Shown in pieces: positions 25,074-34,400 of a stretch of 64,000 nt of DNA (the first letter of the stretch is position 1; every line of letters starts with the position of its first letter). A program made the position numbers and the translations under genes. The notes beneath the pieces are model-generated. The model was not told where the DNA came from. It saw only the letters and a list, made by a program, of their open reading frames with translations, and did no database searches. Location of the stretch: contig NZ_ASZC01000020.1 of the NCBI RefSeq assembly GCF_000468095.1, forward strand, positions 1 through 64,000. The letters run 5' to 3'. This DNA is from Pantoea sp. AS-PWVM4. GTDB lineage: Bacteria > Pseudomonadota > Gammaproteobacteria > Enterobacterales > Enterobacteriaceae.

Positions 25074-26378
25074 TTGACTACATCTATGAAAAAAATTGTG
25101 ATTGTCGGCGGTGGTGCCGGCGGCTTAGAGCTGGCCACCCAGCTCGGACACAAGCTGGGCCGGAAAAAGAAAGCTGAGGTGATTCTGGTTGATCGTAACC
25201 ACAGCCATCTGTGGAAACCGCTGCTGCATGAAGTCGCTACCGGTTCACTGGATGAAGGTATTGATGCGCTGAGCTATCTGGCCCACGCACGTAATCACGG
25301 TTTTCAGTTCCAGTTGGGGTCCCTGACGCAGATCAACCGTGAAAACAAAACCATCGAGCTGGCAGAGATTCTCGATGCGGAAGGTGAAGTGTTGGTGCCG
25401 CAGCGTGAGTTGGCCTATGACACGCTGGTGATGGCGCTGGGCAGTACCTCGAATGATTTCGGCACTCCGGGTGTGAAAGATCACTGCATTTTCCTCGACA
25501 ACCCGCATCAGGCGCGTCGTTTCCATAACGAAATGCTCAACCTGTTCCTGAAATTCTCGGCCAGCGAAGGCCGCCTGGATAAAGTGAACATCGCCATTGT
25601 CGGCGCCGGTGCGACCGGCGTTGAGCTGTCAGCCGAACTGCACAATGCGGTGAAACAGTTGCACAGCTACGGCTACAAAGGTCTGGATAGCTCCGCGCTG
25701 AATGTCACGCTGGTGGAAGCCGGCGAGCGTATTTTGCCTGCGTTGCCGCCACGTATTTCTGCCGCGGCGCATCAGGAGTTGACCAAACTCGGCGTGCGCG
25801 TGCTGACGCAAACTATGGTCACCAGCGCCGCAGCCAACGGCCTGAACACCAAAGGTGGCGAGTTTATCGAAGCCGACCTGATGGTGTGGGCGGCCGGTAT
25901 CAAGGCACCTGATTTCATGAAAGAGATCGGCGGGCTGGAAACCAACCGCATCAACCAACTGGTGGTGAAGGACACGTTGCAGACCACCCTGGATGATGAC
26001 ATCTATGCCATCGGCGACTGCGCCTCCTGTGCGCTGCCATCTGGTGGTTTTGTGCCGCCGCGTGCGCAGTCGGCTCATCAGATGGCCTCGCGCGCGCTGG
26101 AGAATATCCTGGCGCAGATGAAGGGCAAGCCGCTGAAAGCCTATGTCTATAAAGATCACGGCTCGCTGGTGTCGCTGTCGCGCTTCAGTACCGTCGGCAG
26201 CCTGATGGGCAACCTGATGCGTGGCTCGATGATGGTCGAAGGGCGTATCGCCCGTTTCGTCTACATTTCTCTGTATCGTATGCACCAGATCGCCCTGCAC
26301 GGTTACTTCAAAACGGGCCTGATGATGTTGGTCGGTAGCCTGAACCGCGTGCTGCGTCCTCGCCTCAAGCTGCACTAA
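25074..26378 (+). CDS. ndh: NADH dehydrogenase II
   Basis: Single-subunit, non-proton-pumping NADH:quinone oxidoreductase attached to the inner membrane. The protein shows the FAD motif [13 protein letters not shown], the NADH motif [15 protein letters not shown] and AIGDCASC. I choose TTG 25074 (434 aa), because GAGGGGG lies 6 nt upstream and the N-terminus (M)[12 protein letters not shown] matches E. coli [13 protein letters not shown]; an ATG at 25086 is too far from that site. Control by FNR is suggested by the upstream box. Confidence 0.97.
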
Positions 26379-26385
26379 GCCATTC

Positions 26386-26405
26386 CGGGCGGTTTCAGCC
26401 GCCCG
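26386..26405 (+). terminator. Possible ndh terminator hairpin
   Basis: CGGGCGG and CCGCCCG pair perfectly 7 bases past the ndh stop. No T-tract follows, so this may instead be an mRNA-stabilising hairpin. Confidence 0.35.
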
Positions 26406-26661
26406 AATCTGCTAACTGATTGAAAACGTTCAGACCGGCCCGCAGCGCCGTCTGGCGTTTTTCTGAACTAAGAACTCTCCGAAAAGCTGGCCCTGACGGC
26501 CCGGCGCTGCGTTTCCTCCATTAATCTGATGTTGCAAAATCGGGCCATCTGTAAAACTTATCTCACAGACACGGCGCGTCGCGCACGCCGGTTATGTCCC
26601 GGCTACACAGGATGCTGTGAGTTTCAGGATTGCGCGGTAACAACTTCAGGAGGACATTCCT

Positions 26662-27204
26662 GTGAACAAATCAATGTTAGCGGGTATCGGTATTGGCGTA
26701 GCGGCCGCATTAGGGGTTGCTGCAGTTGCCAGCATGGATGTCTTTGACCGTGGCCCGCAATACGCTCAGGTTCTCTCCGCAACACCGATTAAAGAGAGTA
26801 TCAAGCAACCGCGACAGGAGTGTCGCAATGTGACATCAACCCATCGCCGTCCGGTGCAGGATGAGAATCGTTTGACCGGTTCCGTATTGGGTGCGGTGGC
26901 TGGCGGTGTGCTGGGTCACCAGTTCGGTGGCGGACGCGGCAGGGATGTGGCGACAGTCGCAGGTGCACTGGCGGGTGGCTACGCCGGTAATCAGGTGCAG
27001 GCAGGTATGCAGGAACGTGATACCTACACCACTTCGGAACAACGTTGCAAAACGGTGTATGACAAACAGGAAAAAATGCTGGGTTATGACGTGACCTATA
27101 AAATAGGCGACCAGCAGGGCAAAATCCGTATGGAAAAAGACCCTGGCACCCGCATTCCGCTTGACCGTAATGGTCAGTTGATCCTGAATTCAAATCAGGC
27201 CTGA
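26662..27204 (+). CDS. ycfJ: Glycine-zipper envelope protein YcfJ
   Basis: Envelope protein of the 17-kDa surface-antigen/glycine-zipper 2TM family; function unknown. The 180-aa product starts at GTG 26662 behind AGGAGG. It has an N-terminal hydrophobic segment (residues 4-23), then TPIKESIKQPRQECRNV, the glycine zipper GSVLGAVAGGVLGHQFGGG with a second Gly-rich helix, and YDVTYKIGDQQGKIRM. It matches E. coli YcfJ closely. It ends the conserved block before the peptide-export island. Confidence 0.94.
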   Translation: MNKSMLAGIGIGVAAALGVAAVASMDVFDRGPQYAQVLSATPIKESIKQPRQECRNVTSTHRRPVQDENRLTGSVLGAVAGGVLGHQFGGGRGRDVATVAGALAGGYAGNQVQAGMQERDTYTTSEQRCKTVYDKQEKMLGYDVTYKIGDQQGKIRMEKDPGTRIPLDRNGQLILNSNQA

Positions 27205-27226
27205 TTGGGCAAAGACACATCACAGC

Positions 27227-27254
27227 AGGGGGCGATCCTCAGGGACCGCCCCCT
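27227..27254 (+). terminator. ycfJ terminator
   Basis: AGGGGGCG (27227-27234) and CGCCCCCT (27247-27254) form an 8-bp stem just past ycfJ, followed by a weakly T-rich tail. Confidence 0.6.
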
Positions 27255-27270
27255 AATCATTTCTGGCATA

Positions 27271-27319
27271 TATCGCGCGGATTTTTATAAAAAAATAGCG
27301 TGATAAATCGCGCTGCTAC
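27271..27319. repeat. Decayed REP-like pair
   Basis: The left arm keeps only TATCGCGCGGATTTTT. The right arm GCGTGATAAATCGCGCTGCT (27298-27317) differs at two positions from the full unit. The orientation is convergent, as at 85-152. It marks the ycfJ edge of the island. Confidence 0.65.
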
Positions 27320-27393
27320 AAATTAAAGTCATTTTTCATGGCTAATTATCGCCTCATCCCTGAGGCGCTACAGATATATGAAAACTACAACCA

Positions 27394-27609
27394 TCAAATA
27401 CCTGAGTTATTGGTTAACCCACTCAATGCTGAGCCCAGGCCACTCACCACGCCACCGACGGTCGATAGCACCGAACCGAGTAAACCCGTGACAGTTGAGG
27501 TGAGGTTACCCACGACTCCGCTCACATCCGCGACACCGGGAAGTGATACCGCGCCGCCGCTAACCTGTGAAATTTCCTGCTCAGAGAGTTCACGCATTGA
27601 TTCATTCAT
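27394..27609 (-). CDS. Double-glycine-leader glycine-zipper peptide (microcin / Cdz-like)
   Basis: Putative secreted toxin peptide. From the ATG at 27609, with GGAG 7 nt upstream, it is 71 aa: a 19-residue leader MNESMRELSEQEISQVSGG and a 52-residue mature part. The leader matches the class II microcin/colicin V pattern (MRxLxxxEIxxVSGG). The mature peptide has no Cys and one charged residue (Asp9). It is built of Gly, Val, Ser and Leu with GxxxG-like spacing (for example GGVVSGLGSALSGL), predicting membrane-inserting or self-assembling helices. The dedicated C39-peptidase ABC exporter and adaptor lie just upstream on the same strand. Activity and target are inferred; no immunity gene is obvious. 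Confidence 0.8.
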   Translation of the reverse strand: MNESMRELSEQEISQVSGGAVSLPGVADVSGVVGNLTSTVTGLLGSVLSTVGGVVSGLGSALSGLTNNSGI

Positions 27610-27869
27610 AGTTGGACTCCAGATTATCAAAAAATGGTTGACTGGATGATAACGATATTTGAATCGGGCCTTGTTTTTTGAAAGCCCATATTCAGGATAG
27701 ACGGCATTGGATGAATGAAAAGAATATTTTTGAAAAATAATTGGCCCTAAAAAGGAAAGTTATTTTTAATGGCGAAAATAAGTCTCCGGTATTTTTCCGG
27801 ATTATTTTATATAACCATCAATACGGAAAAGAATAATTCCGTAATAAACTCAGTTCTGTCCTAAATAGG

Positions 27870-29987
27870 TTATGACCACTCCGCCATATCGATCACCCGG
27901 TCTGCCGAGGCGATAGTTGAAGGGCGGTGGGCGATCAGGATACGGGTGATGTTCAGCCCGCGGATGGCTGCATTGATTCGACTCTCGTTATCGACATCAA
28001 GGTGGCTGGTTGCCTCATCCAGAAATAACACCTGGGGTCGACGATACAGTGCGCGGGCGATCAGCAGCCGCTGCTTTTGCCCGCCAGAGAGACTTCCCCC
28101 TAACTCACTGATCAACGTTTGATACCCCATCGGCATGGCCAGAATATCATCGTGAATTTGGCTTAGTCTGGCGCATTCCTGTATCCACGCATCATCTGGC
28201 TGGGTATCAAAGGAGCAAATGTTCTCCGCCACGGAACCGGCCAGTAGCGTGTCTTCCTGAAGTACGCAGGCGATACAGGCCTGCCAGTTGGCGATCCCGC
28301 TGGCACGAATGTCGATGCCATTGACATACACTTCTCCGCCAGTCGGCTTCAGCAATCCGGCCATAATCTTCAGCAGGGTGGTTTTTCCTCTACCGGAGGG
28401 GCCGGTGATCGCCACACATTCTCTGGCATGAATATCCAAATCCAGCTCATTGAACAGCAAGGGGCTGAACGGGTCGTGCCGGAAGGTCAATTTTCTGACG
28501 GATAATGCCGCTGGCTCCTCGTGGTGCAGAAGCGGATAGACAGGCGCGCCAGGTGTCGTTTCAGGTGTCGCAAGGACGACATCGGCCACGCGTTCCTTAT
28601 GCACAGACAGCATGCGGAGCTGGAGCACATTATCCAGCAGGGCCGCAGTGCGATCGGCAAAGAGTCCACGATAGGTGCTGAAGGCGACAAACATTCCCAG
28701 CGTCATATGCCCGGCAATCACCGCATTCGCCCCCAGCCACAACAGGGTAATTTGTTGCAGCGTGGCAATCAGGGTATTACCGCCTGAAAACAGCATCTCA
28801 AAGCGGGTCTTGCGGATGGTGGTATTGGCGCTTTCGACATTCAGGTTTAACCAATGCTGCGCCCGTAGTGCCGCTAATCCCAGCGCTTTGATGGTGTGGA
28901 TGCCATACAGGGTTTCCATAAAATGGGAACCGGAACGGGCATTTTTGACAATTTGTTCTTCTGAGCTTTGCCGCCATGCCTGGTAGGTACCCAGCCGAAA
29001 CAGGATCCACAACAGGGTAAACGCCAGCACCACCCATAATAAACTGCCGCCATACAACAGCATCATGATAATCAGGCCCACGGTCATAATGCTGTCGATA
29101 ATGCCGCTGACCACATTACTGGTCAGAGTGGTTTGTAGCGTCTCCAGCGAGGTAAAGCGCGACTGAATATCGCCAAGCTTGCGCTTTTCAAACCATTCGG
29201 TTGGCAACGCGAGCAGATGATCAAACAGCCGCGCTTTGCCTTGCACCGTAATCAGGGTGCTCATGACCAGAGAAGTCCAGCCTCTGAGCATGCTGGCACC
29301 GGTGCGAAACAGCACAAAAAACACTAATCCGAGACAAATCAACGTCAGTAGTCCGGCATCGCTGGCGGGGATGGCATGGTCCAGCACCATCTGCATCCCC
29401 ACGGGCAGCAGCAGACTGACGGATTCTATCAGCACCGAGTAACAGAATAATTTGGTGAGTGTAGTTCCCAGGCCAGCAATGCGTCCCGTCAGTGACCAGA
29501 GAGGTATGCGTGGGCGGGCAGGGGAATTTTTCGGTATTTCACCCGAGGGCCATAATTCCAGCGCCACGCCGGTAAAATGCAGCGAAACTTCCTGCATCCC
29601 CAGCACACGATGACCTGTAGCCGGATCATGAATAATGACGCGGTTACGCTTAACCGCCACCAGCACTACAAAATGGTTAAGATCCCAGTGCAGGATACAG
29701 GGCAACTTCAGCGCTCGCAGATTATCCATCTCCAGCCGGAGTGCGCGCGATTTCAGACCGGCCATCGCGGCGGTATCGATCACGGTACGCAGGGTCGCCC
29801 CCCGGGATGAGATGCCGGATTGTTGGCGCAGCAGTCTCAGATCTGCCGGTAACTGATACCAACTGGCGATCATCGCCAGACTAACCAGCCCACATTCAGC
29901 CGCTTCAGTTTGCAACAGCACCGGCATGCGACGTCGCAGGCGGATATGCAGGCGGGAGAAGAGTTCTTTCATTTCACCGTTCGTCAC
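27870..29987 (-). CDS. Peptidase-containing ABC exporter (CvaB/CdzA type)
   Basis: Inner-membrane exporter that removes double-glycine leaders and exports the peptide. The 705-aa protein has an N-terminal C39 peptidase with Cys32 (QTEAAECGLVSLAM), His105 (HWDLNHFVVL) and Asp121 (HDPATGH). A six-helix domain follows at about 165-440, then an ATPase with Walker A GPSGRGKTT, signature LSGGQKQR, Walker B VLFLDEATSHLD and switch His in LIAHRPS. All catalytic residues are present, so it should be active. Length is close to CvaB (698 aa). It overlaps the adaptor gene by 14 bp and lies 260 bp upstream of the leader peptide gene. Confidence 0.92.
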   Translation of the reverse strand: MTNGEMKELFSRLHIRLRRRMPVLLQTEAAECGLVSLAMIASWYQLPADLRLLRQQSGISSRGATLRTVIDTAAMAGLKSRALRLEMDNLRALKLPCILHWDLNHFVVLVAVKRNRVIIHDPATGHRVLGMQEVSLHFTGVALELWPSGEIPKNSPARPRIPLWSLTGRIAGLGTTLTKLFCYSVLIESVSLLLPVGMQMVLDHAIPASDAGLLTLICLGLVFFVLFRTGASMLRGWTSLVMSTLITVQGKARLFDHLLALPTEWFEKRKLGDIQSRFTSLETLQTTLTSNVVSGIIDSIMTVGLIIMMLLYGGSLLWVVLAFTLLWILFRLGTYQAWRQSSEEQIVKNARSGSHFMETLYGIHTIKALGLAALRAQHWLNLNVESANTTIRKTRFEMLFSGGNTLIATLQQITLLWLGANAVIAGHMTLGMFVAFSTYRGLFADRTAALLDNVLQLRMLSVHKERVADVVLATPETTPGAPVYPLLHHEEPAALSVRKLTFRHDPFSPLLFNELDLDIHARECVAITGPSGRGKTTLLKIMAGLLKPTGGEVYVNGIDIRASGIANWQACIACVLQEDTLLAGSVAENICSFDTQPDDAWIQECARLSQIHDDILAMPMGYQTLISELGGSLSGGQKQRLLIARALYRRPQVLFLDEATSHLDVDNESRINAAIRGLNITRILIAHRPSTIASADRVIDMAEWS

Positions 29988-31266
29988 TGACTGGCCCCGT
30001 GATGCTGTTTTTCAGGAAATAGTAAGGGGAGAGCATCCACTGCCACAGTGGGCGCTTTTCAAGAAACACCGTGGCCTGGAGCTGCATACCACTGGCTAAT
30101 GGCAGCGTTTTTCCCTGCCAGCGCAATCCCTGGTGATTCAGCGCCACATTGGCTTTAAACCAGGCTCCGGCGATCTGCCCATCCGCTAACCGTGGCGCGC
30201 TGCCGTAGTTGTTGAGTTCACGCGGTGAAACCGGCGCGGAGGAGATCGACAGCACCTTGCCCGGAAACTGACCATATTTCTCCGCCGGGTACGCGGCATA
30301 GCTGATATTAATCATGTCACCGGGTTTGACGTACGGGACGCTGTCGTTCGGTAGCCAGATCACCAGGCTGGGGGTGCTATCGCCGGTCGGCACCAATTGC
30401 GCCAGGCTATCGCCGTCGCTAACCATCTCACCTGCAGTGACGCTTAATGACGAGATACGTCCGGCTGAGGGGGCGGAAATCAGGCGCTCACTGCCTGCAT
30501 CAGCTTCCGCCAACTGCCGCTCAATATCGGCCTGACGGATGTGGTACTGCGCCTGCTGGGCGTCAAAATCGGCGGCACGGGTCACCTGCTGGCTGAGCAG
30601 CTCTGCAATCTGCATATCCTGTTGTACCCGCTGCGAGTTCAGGCTATGCCAGACACTAAGCTGTTGATAAAAAAGATAGCGTTGATTGTTTTGCTGGTCG
30701 GTGGTGATCAACCCCTTACGCATGAAACGGCTATAGTCGTTCATACTGCTGCGCATCACGTTCAACCCTTCAGTGGCAGAATCCACCATCTGTTGGGTTT
30801 TTTCGCGGGCGCTGCGTAACTGATCAAGTTGCTGCTGAATGCTGGTCAGGGTGGCGCGTCGATTTTGTTCCAACTGATGCTGCATTTCTCCCATCTGCTG
30901 CTGCTGTTTTTTCAGCAGGGCACGGGTGGTGGCGCTGAGGTTGCCGGAAGAGGACACGCGGCTGATATCCAGTGCATACAGCGGCGTACCGGCATTGACC
31001 TGTTGGCCGGGGGAGACTAATAAACGGGAAATCACCCCTTGTTCAGGTGCAAACAGATTGATGGTGTGGGGCCAGGTGATGACTTCGCCACTGACATTGG
31101 CCCGGCGTGTGTAGCTGCCCTGCCACAGAAAAAGCAACAGCGCGGCAAGAAACAGTAAGGTGATGCACAACGTTATCCATACGGGCCAGCCGGTGATAAG
31201 CAGAATCGGTCCGGCGTAACGTGACTGCAAATGTTCACTGACTTCCTTGCGAAACAGCATAAACAC
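29974..31266 (-). CDS. HlyD-family periplasmic adaptor (CvaA/MchE type)
   Basis: Membrane-fusion protein linking the ABC exporter to TolC. The 430-aa protein has a short cytoplasmic N-terminus, one transmembrane helix (about residues 24-48), a lipoyl-like half domain (VSGEVITWPHTINLFAPEQG), and a long Gln/Arg-rich coiled coil (about 110-270). The second lipoyl half (LISAPSAGRISSLSVTAGE) and a beta-barrel tail (ASGMQLQATVFLEKRPLWQW) follow. It is first gene of the cassette; the AT-rich 31267-31440 region upstream probably carries the promoter. No tolC is in the window, as is usual for such systems. Confidence 0.9.
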   Translation of the reverse strand: MFMLFRKEVSEHLQSRYAGPILLITGWPVWITLCITLLFLAALLLFLWQGSYTRRANVSGEVITWPHTINLFAPEQGVISRLLVSPGQQVNAGTPLYALDISRVSSSGNLSATTRALLKKQQQQMGEMQHQLEQNRRATLTSIQQQLDQLRSAREKTQQMVDSATEGLNVMRSSMNDYSRFMRKGLITTDQQNNQRYLFYQQLSVWHSLNSQRVQQDMQIAELLSQQVTRAADFDAQQAQYHIRQADIERQLAEADAGSERLISAPSAGRISSLSVTAGEMVSDGDSLAQLVPTGDSTPSLVIWLPNDSVPYVKPGDMINISYAAYPAEKYGQFPGKVLSISSAPVSPRELNNYGSAPRLADGQIAGAWFKANVALNHQGLRWQGKTLPLASGMQLQATVFLEKRPLWQWMLSPYYFLKNSITGPVSDER

Positions 31267-31444
31267 ACCAGCGCATAAAATGGACTGATGAGAAAGATAG
31301 TCAGCAACCCTGGGCTTATCCAGTATCAGGACTGATATTTTACGTGGGCGGGGTTAAAAAGGGTCTGGTTTAATTTTATGATATATAAAGACAATCAATT
31401 TATGGTGTTTTCAATGGAATGATAAAACCATTAATTTAATTTAA

Positions 31445-31470
31445 GCTGATGCGCATTGCTGCGCACCAGC
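31445..31470 (-). terminator. mfd terminator
   Basis: GCTGATGCGCA and TGCGCACCAGC pair with one G-T type mismatch around a 4-nt loop. On the minus strand it follows the mfd stop and leads into TTAAATTAAATT. Confidence 0.6.
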
Positions 31471-31478
31471 AATAAGCC

Positions 31479-34400
31479 TTACACCCGATTTTTCATCAGG
31501 TCACTGACGAAATTCTGCACCCACTCCATGCGCGTTTTGCGCTCGGCTAAATCGCGGGTGAATTTCAGGCGTGTCGGACCATCCAGCTTCCACTGGCGCG
31601 GGTCTTTTTGCAGCAGACCAATCAACCAGCCAGGATCGACGTGATTCTGCGGTGCGAACTCAAAGAAACCGCCTTTTTCACTGGCCTCGATGCGGCGCAC
31701 ACCCAGCTGACGCGCAACTAAACGCAACGCTGCAATATCCAGCAGATTACGTGCTGCATCAGGCAGGGAGCCAAAGCGGTCAATCATCTCCACCTTCAGC
31801 TCAGCCAGTTCGCCGTCATCGCTGGCGCTGGCGATGCGTTTGTACAATGACAGACGGGTGTTCACATCAGGGATAAAATCATCCGGCAGCAGCGCTGGCA
31901 TACGCAGCTCAATGTCCGTCTGGTTACTGGTGAGGTCTTCCAGCGAGGGTTCACGTCCGGCCTTCAGTGCATCGACCGCGCTTTCCAGCAGCTCCATATA
32001 CAAGGTAAACCCGATGGTTTCCATCTGGCCGCTCTGATCTTCACCCAGCAATTCACCGGCCCCGCGAATCTCCAGATCGTGGGTCGCCAGCGCAAAACCG
32101 GCACCCAAATCCTCCAGTGAGGCGATGGCTTCCAGTCGCTTTTGTGCGTCGGTGGTCATGGCTTTCGGATGTGGGGTCAGCAACCAGGCATACGCCTGGT
32201 GGTGCGAACGGCCGACACGACCACGCAACTGATGCAGCTGCGCCAGGCCAAAATGGTCGGCACGTTCGATGATGATGGTATTGGCGCTTGGCACGTCGAT
32301 ACCGGTTTCGATGATGGTGGTACACACCAGCACGTTGAAGCGCTGGTGGTGGAAATCGTTCATTACCCGTTCCAGATCGCGCTCACGCATCTGGCCGTGA
32401 CCAATGGCGATGCGGGCTTCCGGCACCAGTTCCGCCAGCCGTTGAGCCGCCTTTTCGATGTTTTCCACATCGTTGTACAGATAGTAAACCTGGCCGCCGC
32501 GCAGCACTTCACGCAGAATCGCTTCACGCACCACCAGGCTATCGTACTCGCGCACAAAGGTTTTCACCGCCAGACGGCGTGCCGGTGGCGTAGCGATAAT
32601 CGACAGATCGCGCATGCCGCTCATCGCCATATTCAGGGTACGCGGGATCGGGGTCGCGGTCAGCGTCAGAATATCGACATCGGCGCGCATCGCCTTGATG
32701 CGCTCCTTGTGACGCACACCAAAGCGGTGTTCTTCATCGACAATTAACAGCCCGAGATCGTGCCACTTCAGGTCACTCATCAGTAGCTTGTGCGTGCCGA
32801 TCAGGATATCAACTTTGCCCTCTGCCGCCTGCTCCAGCACCTGGTTTTGCTCTTTGGCACTGCGGAAGCGTGACAGCATCTCAATGCGGATGGGCCAGTT
32901 GGCAAAACGATCGCGGAAATTATCGTAGTGCTGCTGAGCCAGCAGGGTGGTGGGCACCAGTACCGCCACCTGTTTGCTGTTCTCCACCGCCAGGAAGGCG
33001 GCGCGCATCGCAACCTCGGTTTTACCGAAGCCCACGTCACCGCACACCAGACGATCCATGGCCAGCGGCTGACACATATCGCTCAGTACGGCGTTGATCG
33101 CCTGGGCCTGATCCGGCGTGGTTTCAAACGGGAAGCCTTCACAGAACAATTGGTATTGATCGCGGTCGTGCTTAAAGGCAAAACCGGCTTTGGCGGCACG
33201 CTGGGCATAGATATCCAGCAGTTCTGCTGCCACGTCGCGCACTTTTTCTGCCGCTTTCTGACGGGCGCGGGACCAGGCATCGCTTCCCAGCTTGTGCAGC
33301 GGCGCGTTTTCGTCAGCGCCCCCGGCGTAACGGCTGATCAGATGCAACGACGAGACCGGCACATACAGTTTGGCGTCGCCAGCGTAGGAGAGCATCAGAT
33401 ATTCGGCTTCAATCCCCCCGGCTTCCAATCGGGTCAGGCCAATATAACGTCCCACGCCGTGTTCCAGATGCACCACCGGCTGACCGGGATGCAACTCGGC
33501 GAGGTTGCGGATCAGCACATCCGGATTAATGGTGCGGCGGTTGTCCTGACGACGGCGGCTGACACGCTCGCCCAGCAGGTCGCTTTCGCAGATAAACGCC
33601 AGCTGGCGTGCGTTATCGATAAAACCGCGTTCGCTGGCACCAATCATCAGGCTGTGCGGTTGTGCGCTGGCATCCGCCAGGCGGCTGATGGGCTGTGGAC
33701 GCAATTTGATGCGCGCCAGCAGTTCCTGCAAGCTTTCGCGGCGGCCTTCGCTCTCGACTGAGAACACCACCGGACCGTTGAACTGTTCCAGGAACTGACG
33801 CAGCAGATCGAGTGGCGCTTTGGCCTGAGCCTGCACCGTCAGTTCCGGCAGCGGTTGATAGCCGAGGTTGCTATTGGCGGCCTTGTCAGCCAGCGTTTCG
33901 CTGCTTAACTGGACGCGTGGCCAGGCTTTCAGCTCACTGAATAACGCATCCGGACGCAGCCACAACGCCACCGGCTCCAGCAGTGGGCGCATCGGGTCGA
34001 TACGGCGGTTTTCAAAGCGCGCATTGACGTCTTGCCAGAAGCGCTGCGCGCTGCTTTCCAGGTCGCCGCTGTTAACAATCAAAGTGTTGGCAGGTAGGTA
34101 GCTGAATAACGTCGGCAGCGCCTGCTCGAAAAACAGCGGCTGCCAGTATTCAATCCCGGCGGGCAGGGTGCCTTTGCTCACCTGCTGATAAACGTGTTCC
34201 GCTTCGCGGCGCACATCAAAGGTTTCGCGCCAGCGGGTGCGAAACTGTTCAATGGCGGCTTTATCGGTCGGGAATTCATGGGCAGGCAGCAGATTGATGG
34301 CATCGACCGCTTCCAGCGTGCGTTGGCTGTCGACATCAAACAGGCGCAGGCTATCGATTTCATCATCAAAGAAGTCAATGCGGTACGGCTGATCGCTGCC

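Follow-up and report, generated by a model that had tools for sequence, protein, structure and literature searches.

What does a small peptide do that is encoded together with an exporter of its own, and is a weapon the right guess? The question is raised by a locus in a 64,000-nucleotide stretch of DNA from Pantoea sp. AS-PWVM4 (contig NZ_ASZC01000020.1, positions 1 to 64,000; the whole stretch analysed is hereafter called the window), where three minus-strand genes, encoding a 71-amino-acid (aa) precursor, a C39 peptidase-ABC exporter, and an HlyD-type adaptor, sit between ycfJ and mfd. An earlier note had taken the peptide for a glycine-zipper peptide and implied a weapon, either a microcin or a relative of the Cdz system. 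To judge from its gene content, the locus is a self-contained cassette for type I export, dedicated to a single cargo. Tentatively, and with somewhat less than even confidence, we read this cargo as a secreted peptide that is self-assembling or surface-active; a glycine-zipper toxin of the Cdz type is improbable. As expected from the family, the leader would be cut after its Gly-Gly pair by the C39 peptidase of the exporter, and the 52-residue peptide would exit via exporter, adaptor, and a TolC-type outer-membrane channel. The mature peptide is predicted to form one long amphipathic helix that bears almost no charge, in which a stripe of Val, Leu, and Ile faces away from a side rich in Ser, Gly, and Asn, and this stripe could mediate self-association as well as association with membranes or surfaces. 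The most likely job outside the producer would be in matrix, adhesion, or wetting within the producer's own community, which would explain why no immunity gene was found beside the peptide.

Organization of the Cassette

The precursor gene (27394..27609, minus strand) encodes a 19-aa double-glycine leader and a 52-aa mature amphipathic peptide, as assigned from translation, orthologues, alignment, and AlphaFold2. It starts 260 bases past the stop of the gene for the C39 peptidase-containing ABC exporter of the CvaB/MchF kind (27870..29987, minus strand; 705 aa; translation and Pfam), which is overlapped by the gene for the HlyD/CvaA-type membrane fusion adaptor (29974..31266, minus strand; 430 aa; GTG start, with an ATG two codons in). 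The exporter matches Peptidase_C39 (E 7.7e-31), ABC_membrane (E 1.9e-43), and ABC_tran (E 5e-30), the adaptor matches HlyD_3 (E 6e-17), and the exporter is approximately 53% identical to annotated CvaB and to MchF. Counted on the translation, its catalytic residues are Cys32, His105, and Asp121, the same numbering as that of the CvaB triad in PMC9746304. The intact exporter and adaptor claimed by the earlier note are thereby confirmed, as are the 71-aa precursor, its double-glycine leader, the 52-aa mature part, the single charged residue, and the lack of Cys.

A search of the genome with the PF03412 profile detected a single C39 protein, the cassette exporter. The outer-membrane-factor domain PF02321 has 22 matches in the genome, counted at domain level with TolC not singled out. 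No regulator or kinase gene is found in the cassette between ycfJ and mfd, no Rfam family matches within 26000-32000, and PADLOC returned no match for the peptide or the adaptor and only generic ATPase matches for the exporter.

The leader MNESMRELSEQEISQVSGG (27553..27609, minus strand; cleavage expected after GG) is unchanged in the six Pantoea genomes that carry the cassette (five rows were aligned; the sixth, G323, is identical), and none of the seven species pairs shown has any nonsynonymous divergence in it (dN 0), although their silent sites did change; the leader is therefore more than chance. A genome-wide search with a profile of 20 leaders returned only this leader at E <= 10, with an E of 1.4e-5 that is flattering because the cassette leader is itself one of the 20 profile rows. 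The cassette leader likewise stands alone at this threshold in four of the six carriers (G000, G323, G340, and G306). In G332 there is one extra marginal match (E 0.36), and G305 has a second strong match (E 2.0e-4) in addition to a marginal one (E 1.09). The second double-glycine precursor of G305 (L221:973-1545; 114 aa; C-terminus ..GGQCHW) lies approximately 30 kb from the cassette, and a 71-aa membrane-protein open reading frame (ORF) lies 13 bases beyond it, so that the pair has the look of a microcin with its immunity protein. From this arrangement, the G305 cassette exporter may also serve a second, microcin-like cargo.

Predicted Structure of the Mature Peptide

The mature peptide (AVSLPGVADV...NNSGI; 27397..27552, minus strand; 52 aa), predicted as one long amphipathic helix, is very hydrophobic (grand average of hydropathy 0.99) and nearly uncharged, with Asp9 as its one charged residue and no Cys, and it ends in the polar sequence TNNSGI. 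Its strongest hydrophobic periodicity lies at 100 degrees. Among 3000 shuffles, scored on a slightly coarser angle grid than the real peptide, none had an equally strong hydrophobic moment within 94-106 degrees, and 0.2% had one at any angle. AlphaFold2, supplied with five orthologues, predicted one helix over residues 24-69 (46 residues; predicted local distance difference test up to 93 by block, mean 80; predicted template modeling score (pTM) 0.38). Within 60 degrees of its centre, the hydrophobic face consists of Val and Leu except for one Thr and one Ser, and the opposite face consists of Gly, Ser, and Asn, plus Pro, Asp, and one Ala. Substitutions among the five orthologues affect 20 positions, including eight swaps within L/V/I and four between S and T.

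The glycine zipper did not withstand a count of motifs. GxxxGxxxG is absent from the peptides of all six carriers; GxxxG occurs once in the window peptide versus 1.96 expected from shuffles; and a looser zipper definition gives one motif versus 1.28 expected, which is the chance level. In the same test, three zipper cargos beside related exporters (L179, L128, and L101) exceed chance (P 0.0002-0.009). A glycine zipper is therefore not supported for the window peptide, and neither is the structural part of the resemblance to Cdz. Two other carriers, G340 and G305, have peptides with four looser motifs apiece (P 0.076).

The remaining resemblance to CdzABCDI and Cdz-like systems lies in a type I exporter, a G[G/A/S] leader, a hydrophobic peptide, and a polar C-terminus. 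Among the criteria for Cdz-like peptides in PMC5380434, the length of 60-151 residues (71 aa here), the G[G/A/S] leader end, and the polar C-terminus agree, whereas the zipper does not rise above chance. Furthermore, the mature peptide has a G+A+V+I content of 48% versus 75% in CdzC/D (PMC5380434), there is one peptide rather than two, and no conserved CdzI-like small membrane protein was found in the six cassettes.

Searches of the Protein Data Bank by sequence and by fold gave no match for the peptide. Its best foreign match in 295 family genomes is a double-glycine peptide of G162 (44% identity over residues 3-54, E 6.1e-6; E 3.0e-5 with the profile), to which the leader contributes part of the similarity; the other matches are weaker and were not accepted as orthologues. 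A match of precursor residues 33-70 (27394-27498) to the model of the Hrp type III pilin HrpA scores 14.4 bits, far short of the cut-off of 34 (E 0.036), and is probably an effect of composition. HrpA is a self-assembling pilin.

Inheritance in the Genus

Among 61 genomes of the genus, six carry the cassette with an intact peptide, and the site between ycfJ and mfd is identical in all six. The carriers are the window's own genome, a second genome of that species, and four further genomes, in which the peptides are 96, 87, 87, and 79% identical and the exporters 93, 86, 85, and 85%; orthologues of the peptide thus occur in five other genus genomes at 79-100% identity. Exporter, adaptor, and peptide occur together in 6/6 carriers, a co-occurrence that the earlier note had proposed to check in related genomes, and the peptide is intact in all six genomes with an at least 85% identical exporter; loss of the peptide where the exporter is kept, which the same note had named in advance as speaking against its proposal, was not seen. 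The remaining 55 genomes gave only weak matches (best E 0.04, at most 50% identity). The six best ycfJ matches are the six carriers, so that a single acquisition of the cassette, in one subclade, is likely from the sequences. The site was read over 1.5 kb in 24 of the 55 non-carriers (L149-L172): mfd lies within 450 bases of ycfJ in 16, a stretch of approximately 1.3 kb occupies the site in one, and in seven the 1.5 kb runs through other ORFs without reaching mfd.

The ratio of nonsynonymous to synonymous divergence (dN/dS) of the mature peptide is 0.03-0.09 in six of seven pairs, values that are rough because dS is above 1 in five of these six and that, in the sixth, rest on very few changes.

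Search for a Linked Immunity Protein

Class II microcins are encoded beside an immunity protein, usually a membrane protein (PMC9746304, PMC13101503). No conserved immunity-like ORF was found across the six cassettes. Wherever an ORF of 20 aa or more shares its stop, in the same alignment column, across at least five of the six cassettes, it is one of the three genes or lies inside them. A relaxed scan for membrane ORFs (at least 30 aa, no Shine-Dalgarno sequence required) returned only ycfJ, ORFs overlapping ycfJ, and a 30-aa hydrophobic ORF in G340 alone. The weapon implied by the earlier note is not supported by these scans. On the strand opposite the peptide gene, a 103-aa ORF (27338-27649, plus strand) was considered and rejected, having no shared-stop counterpart in at least five of the six cassettes. 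For comparison, each of five Erwiniaceae microcin candidates is accompanied, at a distance of 6-228 bases, by a membrane ORF of 61-71 aa, although these controls were chosen by hand and two of them, L179 and L186, were picked after the same scan had flagged both. A stricter scan found no immunity-like neighbour for any of the 27 cargo peptides in the clade of the exporter, the housekeeping genes ycfJ and ycjF being set aside.

Exporter Clade and Its Cargos

Scanned by pattern with the exporter, 84,980 species genomes yielded 70 loci. A tree of 83 exporter rows places the window exporter within a clade of 25 rows (Shimodaira-Hasegawa-like approximate likelihood ratio test 100), which consists of three branches without resolution of their mutual order: the six Pantoea carriers with LSJC7, a Rahnella group of 15, and Serratia sp. 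M24T3 with Rouxiella badensis. The rows are not independent: those of Rahnella are in many cases near-identical, one genome contributes both L073 and L175, and the window and L173 belong to the same species. The cargo scan found a match in 66 of 88 loci (81 matches in total); nine matches were removed by hand as not leader-like (L086, L098, L100, L104, L119, L117, L122, L130, and L141), leaving 72 peptides in 62 loci for labelling the tree, and a locus without a detected peptide may hold one outside the search pattern. With labels that use thresholds of our own setting, amphipathic cargo occurs in all 24 peptide-bearing loci inside the clade and a significant zipper in one (LSJC7); outside the clade, significant zippers occur in 18 of 38 loci.

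A peptide of the form MKQLTE.DIEMVNGA is carried by the Rahnella/Ewingella/Rouxiella aceris/Hafnia psychrotolerans group (L075-L077, L079-L087, L090, and L132), and structure prediction gives it a single long helix (residues 17-62). It is present in 14 of 14 genomes of the genus Rahnella at 95-100% identity, and the cassette adjoins ycjX-ycjF in all 14 loci of its group that are long enough to show it, L078, the fifteenth, being a 6-kb contig without this pair; hemB follows the exporter in Rahnella loci. An example of this core peptide is at L076:4100-4291, beside ycjF. Near-invariance, presence in every genome, and a fixed site are the behaviour of a core function. The Rahnella-group and Pantoea cassettes share an exporter of the same clade (approximately 66% identical), one double-glycine cargo predicted as a single amphipathic helix of 46 residues, and no immunity-like ORF besides the housekeeping ycjF. 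By contrast, the Rahnella-group cargo is charged (10 of 48 residues in Rahnella), has no detectable sequence similarity to the window peptide, and is core in Rahnella, and its cassette has a divergent gene order and another site.

In the third branch, the exporters of Serratia sp. M24T3 and R. badensis (L089 and L088) are 64% identical to that of the window. One peptide of M24T3 aligns with the window peptide at 35% over 63 residues (E 0.001, in a single comparison), and on this alignment it is plausibly a distant homologue. M24T3 has several tandem peptide genes: at L089:1986-4587, related double-glycine peptide genes stand between two exporter genes, and the scan found no immunity-like ORF there. 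Elsewhere among the exporter relatives, a double-glycine precursor at L126:4379-4552 has a mature part of Cys-Pro repeats, an unusual cargo for the exporter family, and two microcin cassettes on Erwiniaceae plasmids have, directly after the exporter, a gene annotated as the proteolytic subunit of the ATP-dependent Clp protease (L225:8093-8770 and L226:7116-7769).

What marks this part of the exporter family off from its microcin kin is the cargo, a conserved long helix, neutral or mildly charged, that has no zipper and no linked immunity gene and is core in one genus. Across the three branches, it is conceivable, and rather less than an even bet, that this part of the microcin-exporter family of Enterobacterales (the Pantoea lineage, Rahnella/Ewingella/Rouxiella, and Serratia M24T3) turned from weapons to the housekeeping export of long amphipathic-helix peptides that lack linked immunity and would serve the producer's own surface or biofilm in a structural or surface-active role. 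A functional precedent is EbfG1-4 with the exporter PteB in Synechococcus elongatus, likewise small double-glycine peptides exported by a C39 system, which are needed for biofilm and have a matrix function (PMC4997328, PMC9981879). Double-glycine peptides therefore need not be weapons. EbfG1-3 form amyloid, whereas the present peptide is predicted to be helical; we draw the likeness without claiming a sequence relationship.

Weapon, Signal, or Surface Peptide

Several points, besides the hand-picking of the five controls, weigh against the reading that we prefer. The exporter is of the kind that serves microcins (CvaB/MchF). Where the peptide matches a family model below cut-off, that model is mostly one of bacteriocins: plantaricin C lantibiotics at E 0.004, MccV at E 0.014 (16.3 bits versus a cut-off of 27), and Bacteriocin_IIc at E 0.04. 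Carriage in the genus is patchy (6/61). In the G340-G306 pair, dN/dS of the mature peptide is 0.45 versus 0.036 for the exporter; the peptide is thus kept, yet changes faster than the exporter in at least one comparison, which fits a weapon too. The AlphaFold2 model had only five input rows and a pTM of 0.38, and Foldseek with the predicted peptide found nothing. BLASTP between the Rahnella-type and window peptides gave no alignment, making that comparison one by analogy. Amphipathic cargo is also common outside the clade (21 of 38 loci), so that the clade is distinguished by the scarcity of zippers and not by amphipathicity. Finally, of the 45 cargo peptides outside the clade, six have an immunity-like neighbour (at L117, L125, L133, L179, and L186) and 39 have none, clear glycine-zipper cargos among them; in Cdz-like systems, immunity genes are harder to find (PMC5380434). 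The immunity test thus discriminates poorly, and missing linked immunity is a suggestive and not a decisive argument against a weapon.

The strongest alternative is a class II microcin-like pore former, whose helices, with hydroxyl and glycine residues on one face, would bundle and so form a channel through the inner membrane of neighbours that are sensitive, with immunity encoded at an unlinked site or with a producer that lacks the uptake route. Microcins V and H47 (CvaAB, MchEF) share with the cassette a double-glycine leader, a C39 exporter at approximately 53% identity, an HlyD-type adaptor, and a small Gly-rich cargo, and the leader is of the microcin type. Of the class II microcin components listed in PMC9746304, the precursor, the transporter with its C39 triad, and the membrane fusion protein are present, and the adjoining immunity gene was not found. 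The pattern of a Leu/Val face opposite a Ser/Gly face also fits, as designed Leu/Ser heptad peptides, (LSSLLSL)3, form channels in bilayers (PMC6824673); a pore-forming weapon is for this reason nearly as likely as the surface-active peptide that we prefer. The below-cut-off bacteriocin matches, the faster change in one species pair, and the patchy carriage point the same way. Furthermore, 12 of 23 microcin candidates screened from Pantoea, Erwinia, and Xanthomonas inhibited Escherichia coli, weakly (PMC13174018). This screen, together with the Cdz-like candidates predicted in Erwinia sp. (PMC5380434), precedes the present case, and the earlier note's suggestion of something new in Erwiniaceae does not hold for the kind; a literature search at the level of titles and abstracts found no report on the present peptide or the Rahnella peptide. 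Unlike class II microcins, the cassette shows no conserved linked immunity ORF, and its 52-residue cargo is predicted as a single helix with no evident receptor-binding tail and has no match to a microcin family above that family's own cut-off. A 19-base Fur-box pattern with up to three mismatches has no match in the window, and the Rahnella-branch peptide is near-invariant and core, which likewise speak against a pore former. On balance, such a weapon is a serious possibility that still falls clearly short of an even chance.

C39-exported double-glycine peptides include pheromones in Gram-positive bacteria. A pheromone or other signal that leaves through the cassette and acts on a receptor encoded elsewhere would fit this precedent, the single cargo detected in four of the six carriers, and a weak match of residues 3-36 to the pheromone VP1 model that stays below cut-off (E 0.052). 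The cassette has no kinase or regulator gene, however, and a very hydrophobic, repetitive 52-residue helix whose substitutions mostly keep its physical pattern would be an odd signal; we regard this function as improbable. Least probable, and very unlikely in our view, is a Cdz-like contact-dependent killer aggregated on the producer surface, since the agreement in length, leader, exporter, and C-terminus and the looser motifs of G340 and G305 are set against the missing zipper, the composition, and the absence of a conserved linked CdzI-like ORF.

Possible Control Elements of the Peptide Gene

A Shine-Dalgarno-like CTGGAG at 27617-27622, conserved in the carriers, fits the first ATG of the peptide gene. 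Farther upstream, a minus-10-like element, CTATCCT (27694..27700, minus strand), is conserved in the alignment of all six cassettes and could be a promoter element of the peptide gene; we take it to resemble sigma-S promoters, and it was not among the sites listed by a consensus promoter scan. A short hairpin in the presumed 5' untranslated region (27666..27687, minus strand) forms its stem in the four orthologues folded, and its bases differ between two subclades. In single-sequence folds of 27595-27704, TCCAG can pair with CTGGA of the Shine-Dalgarno-like site and GATTC with GAATC at codons 3-4, pairings that are absent from some orthologues; translational control of the peptide gene by such pairing is possible from these models. 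Just after the peptide gene, the perfect inverted repeat GCCTCA/TGAGGC (27351..27366, minus strand) is present in the cassette alignment; a terminator role is only possible because there is no T-run, and the terminator scan did not list it.

Perspective

If a whole branch of the exporter family carries conserved helical peptides that lack immunity genes, a double-glycine leader beside a C39 exporter does not imply a weapon. Microcin discovery relies largely on searches for this pair, and genome-mining pipelines that call such peptides microcins would, if the branch has turned to housekeeping export, mislabel a functional class. Rahnella would hold a core peptide without known function, as far as the literature search goes, and the enterobacteria would gain a counterpart to the cyanobacterial EbfG matrix peptides.

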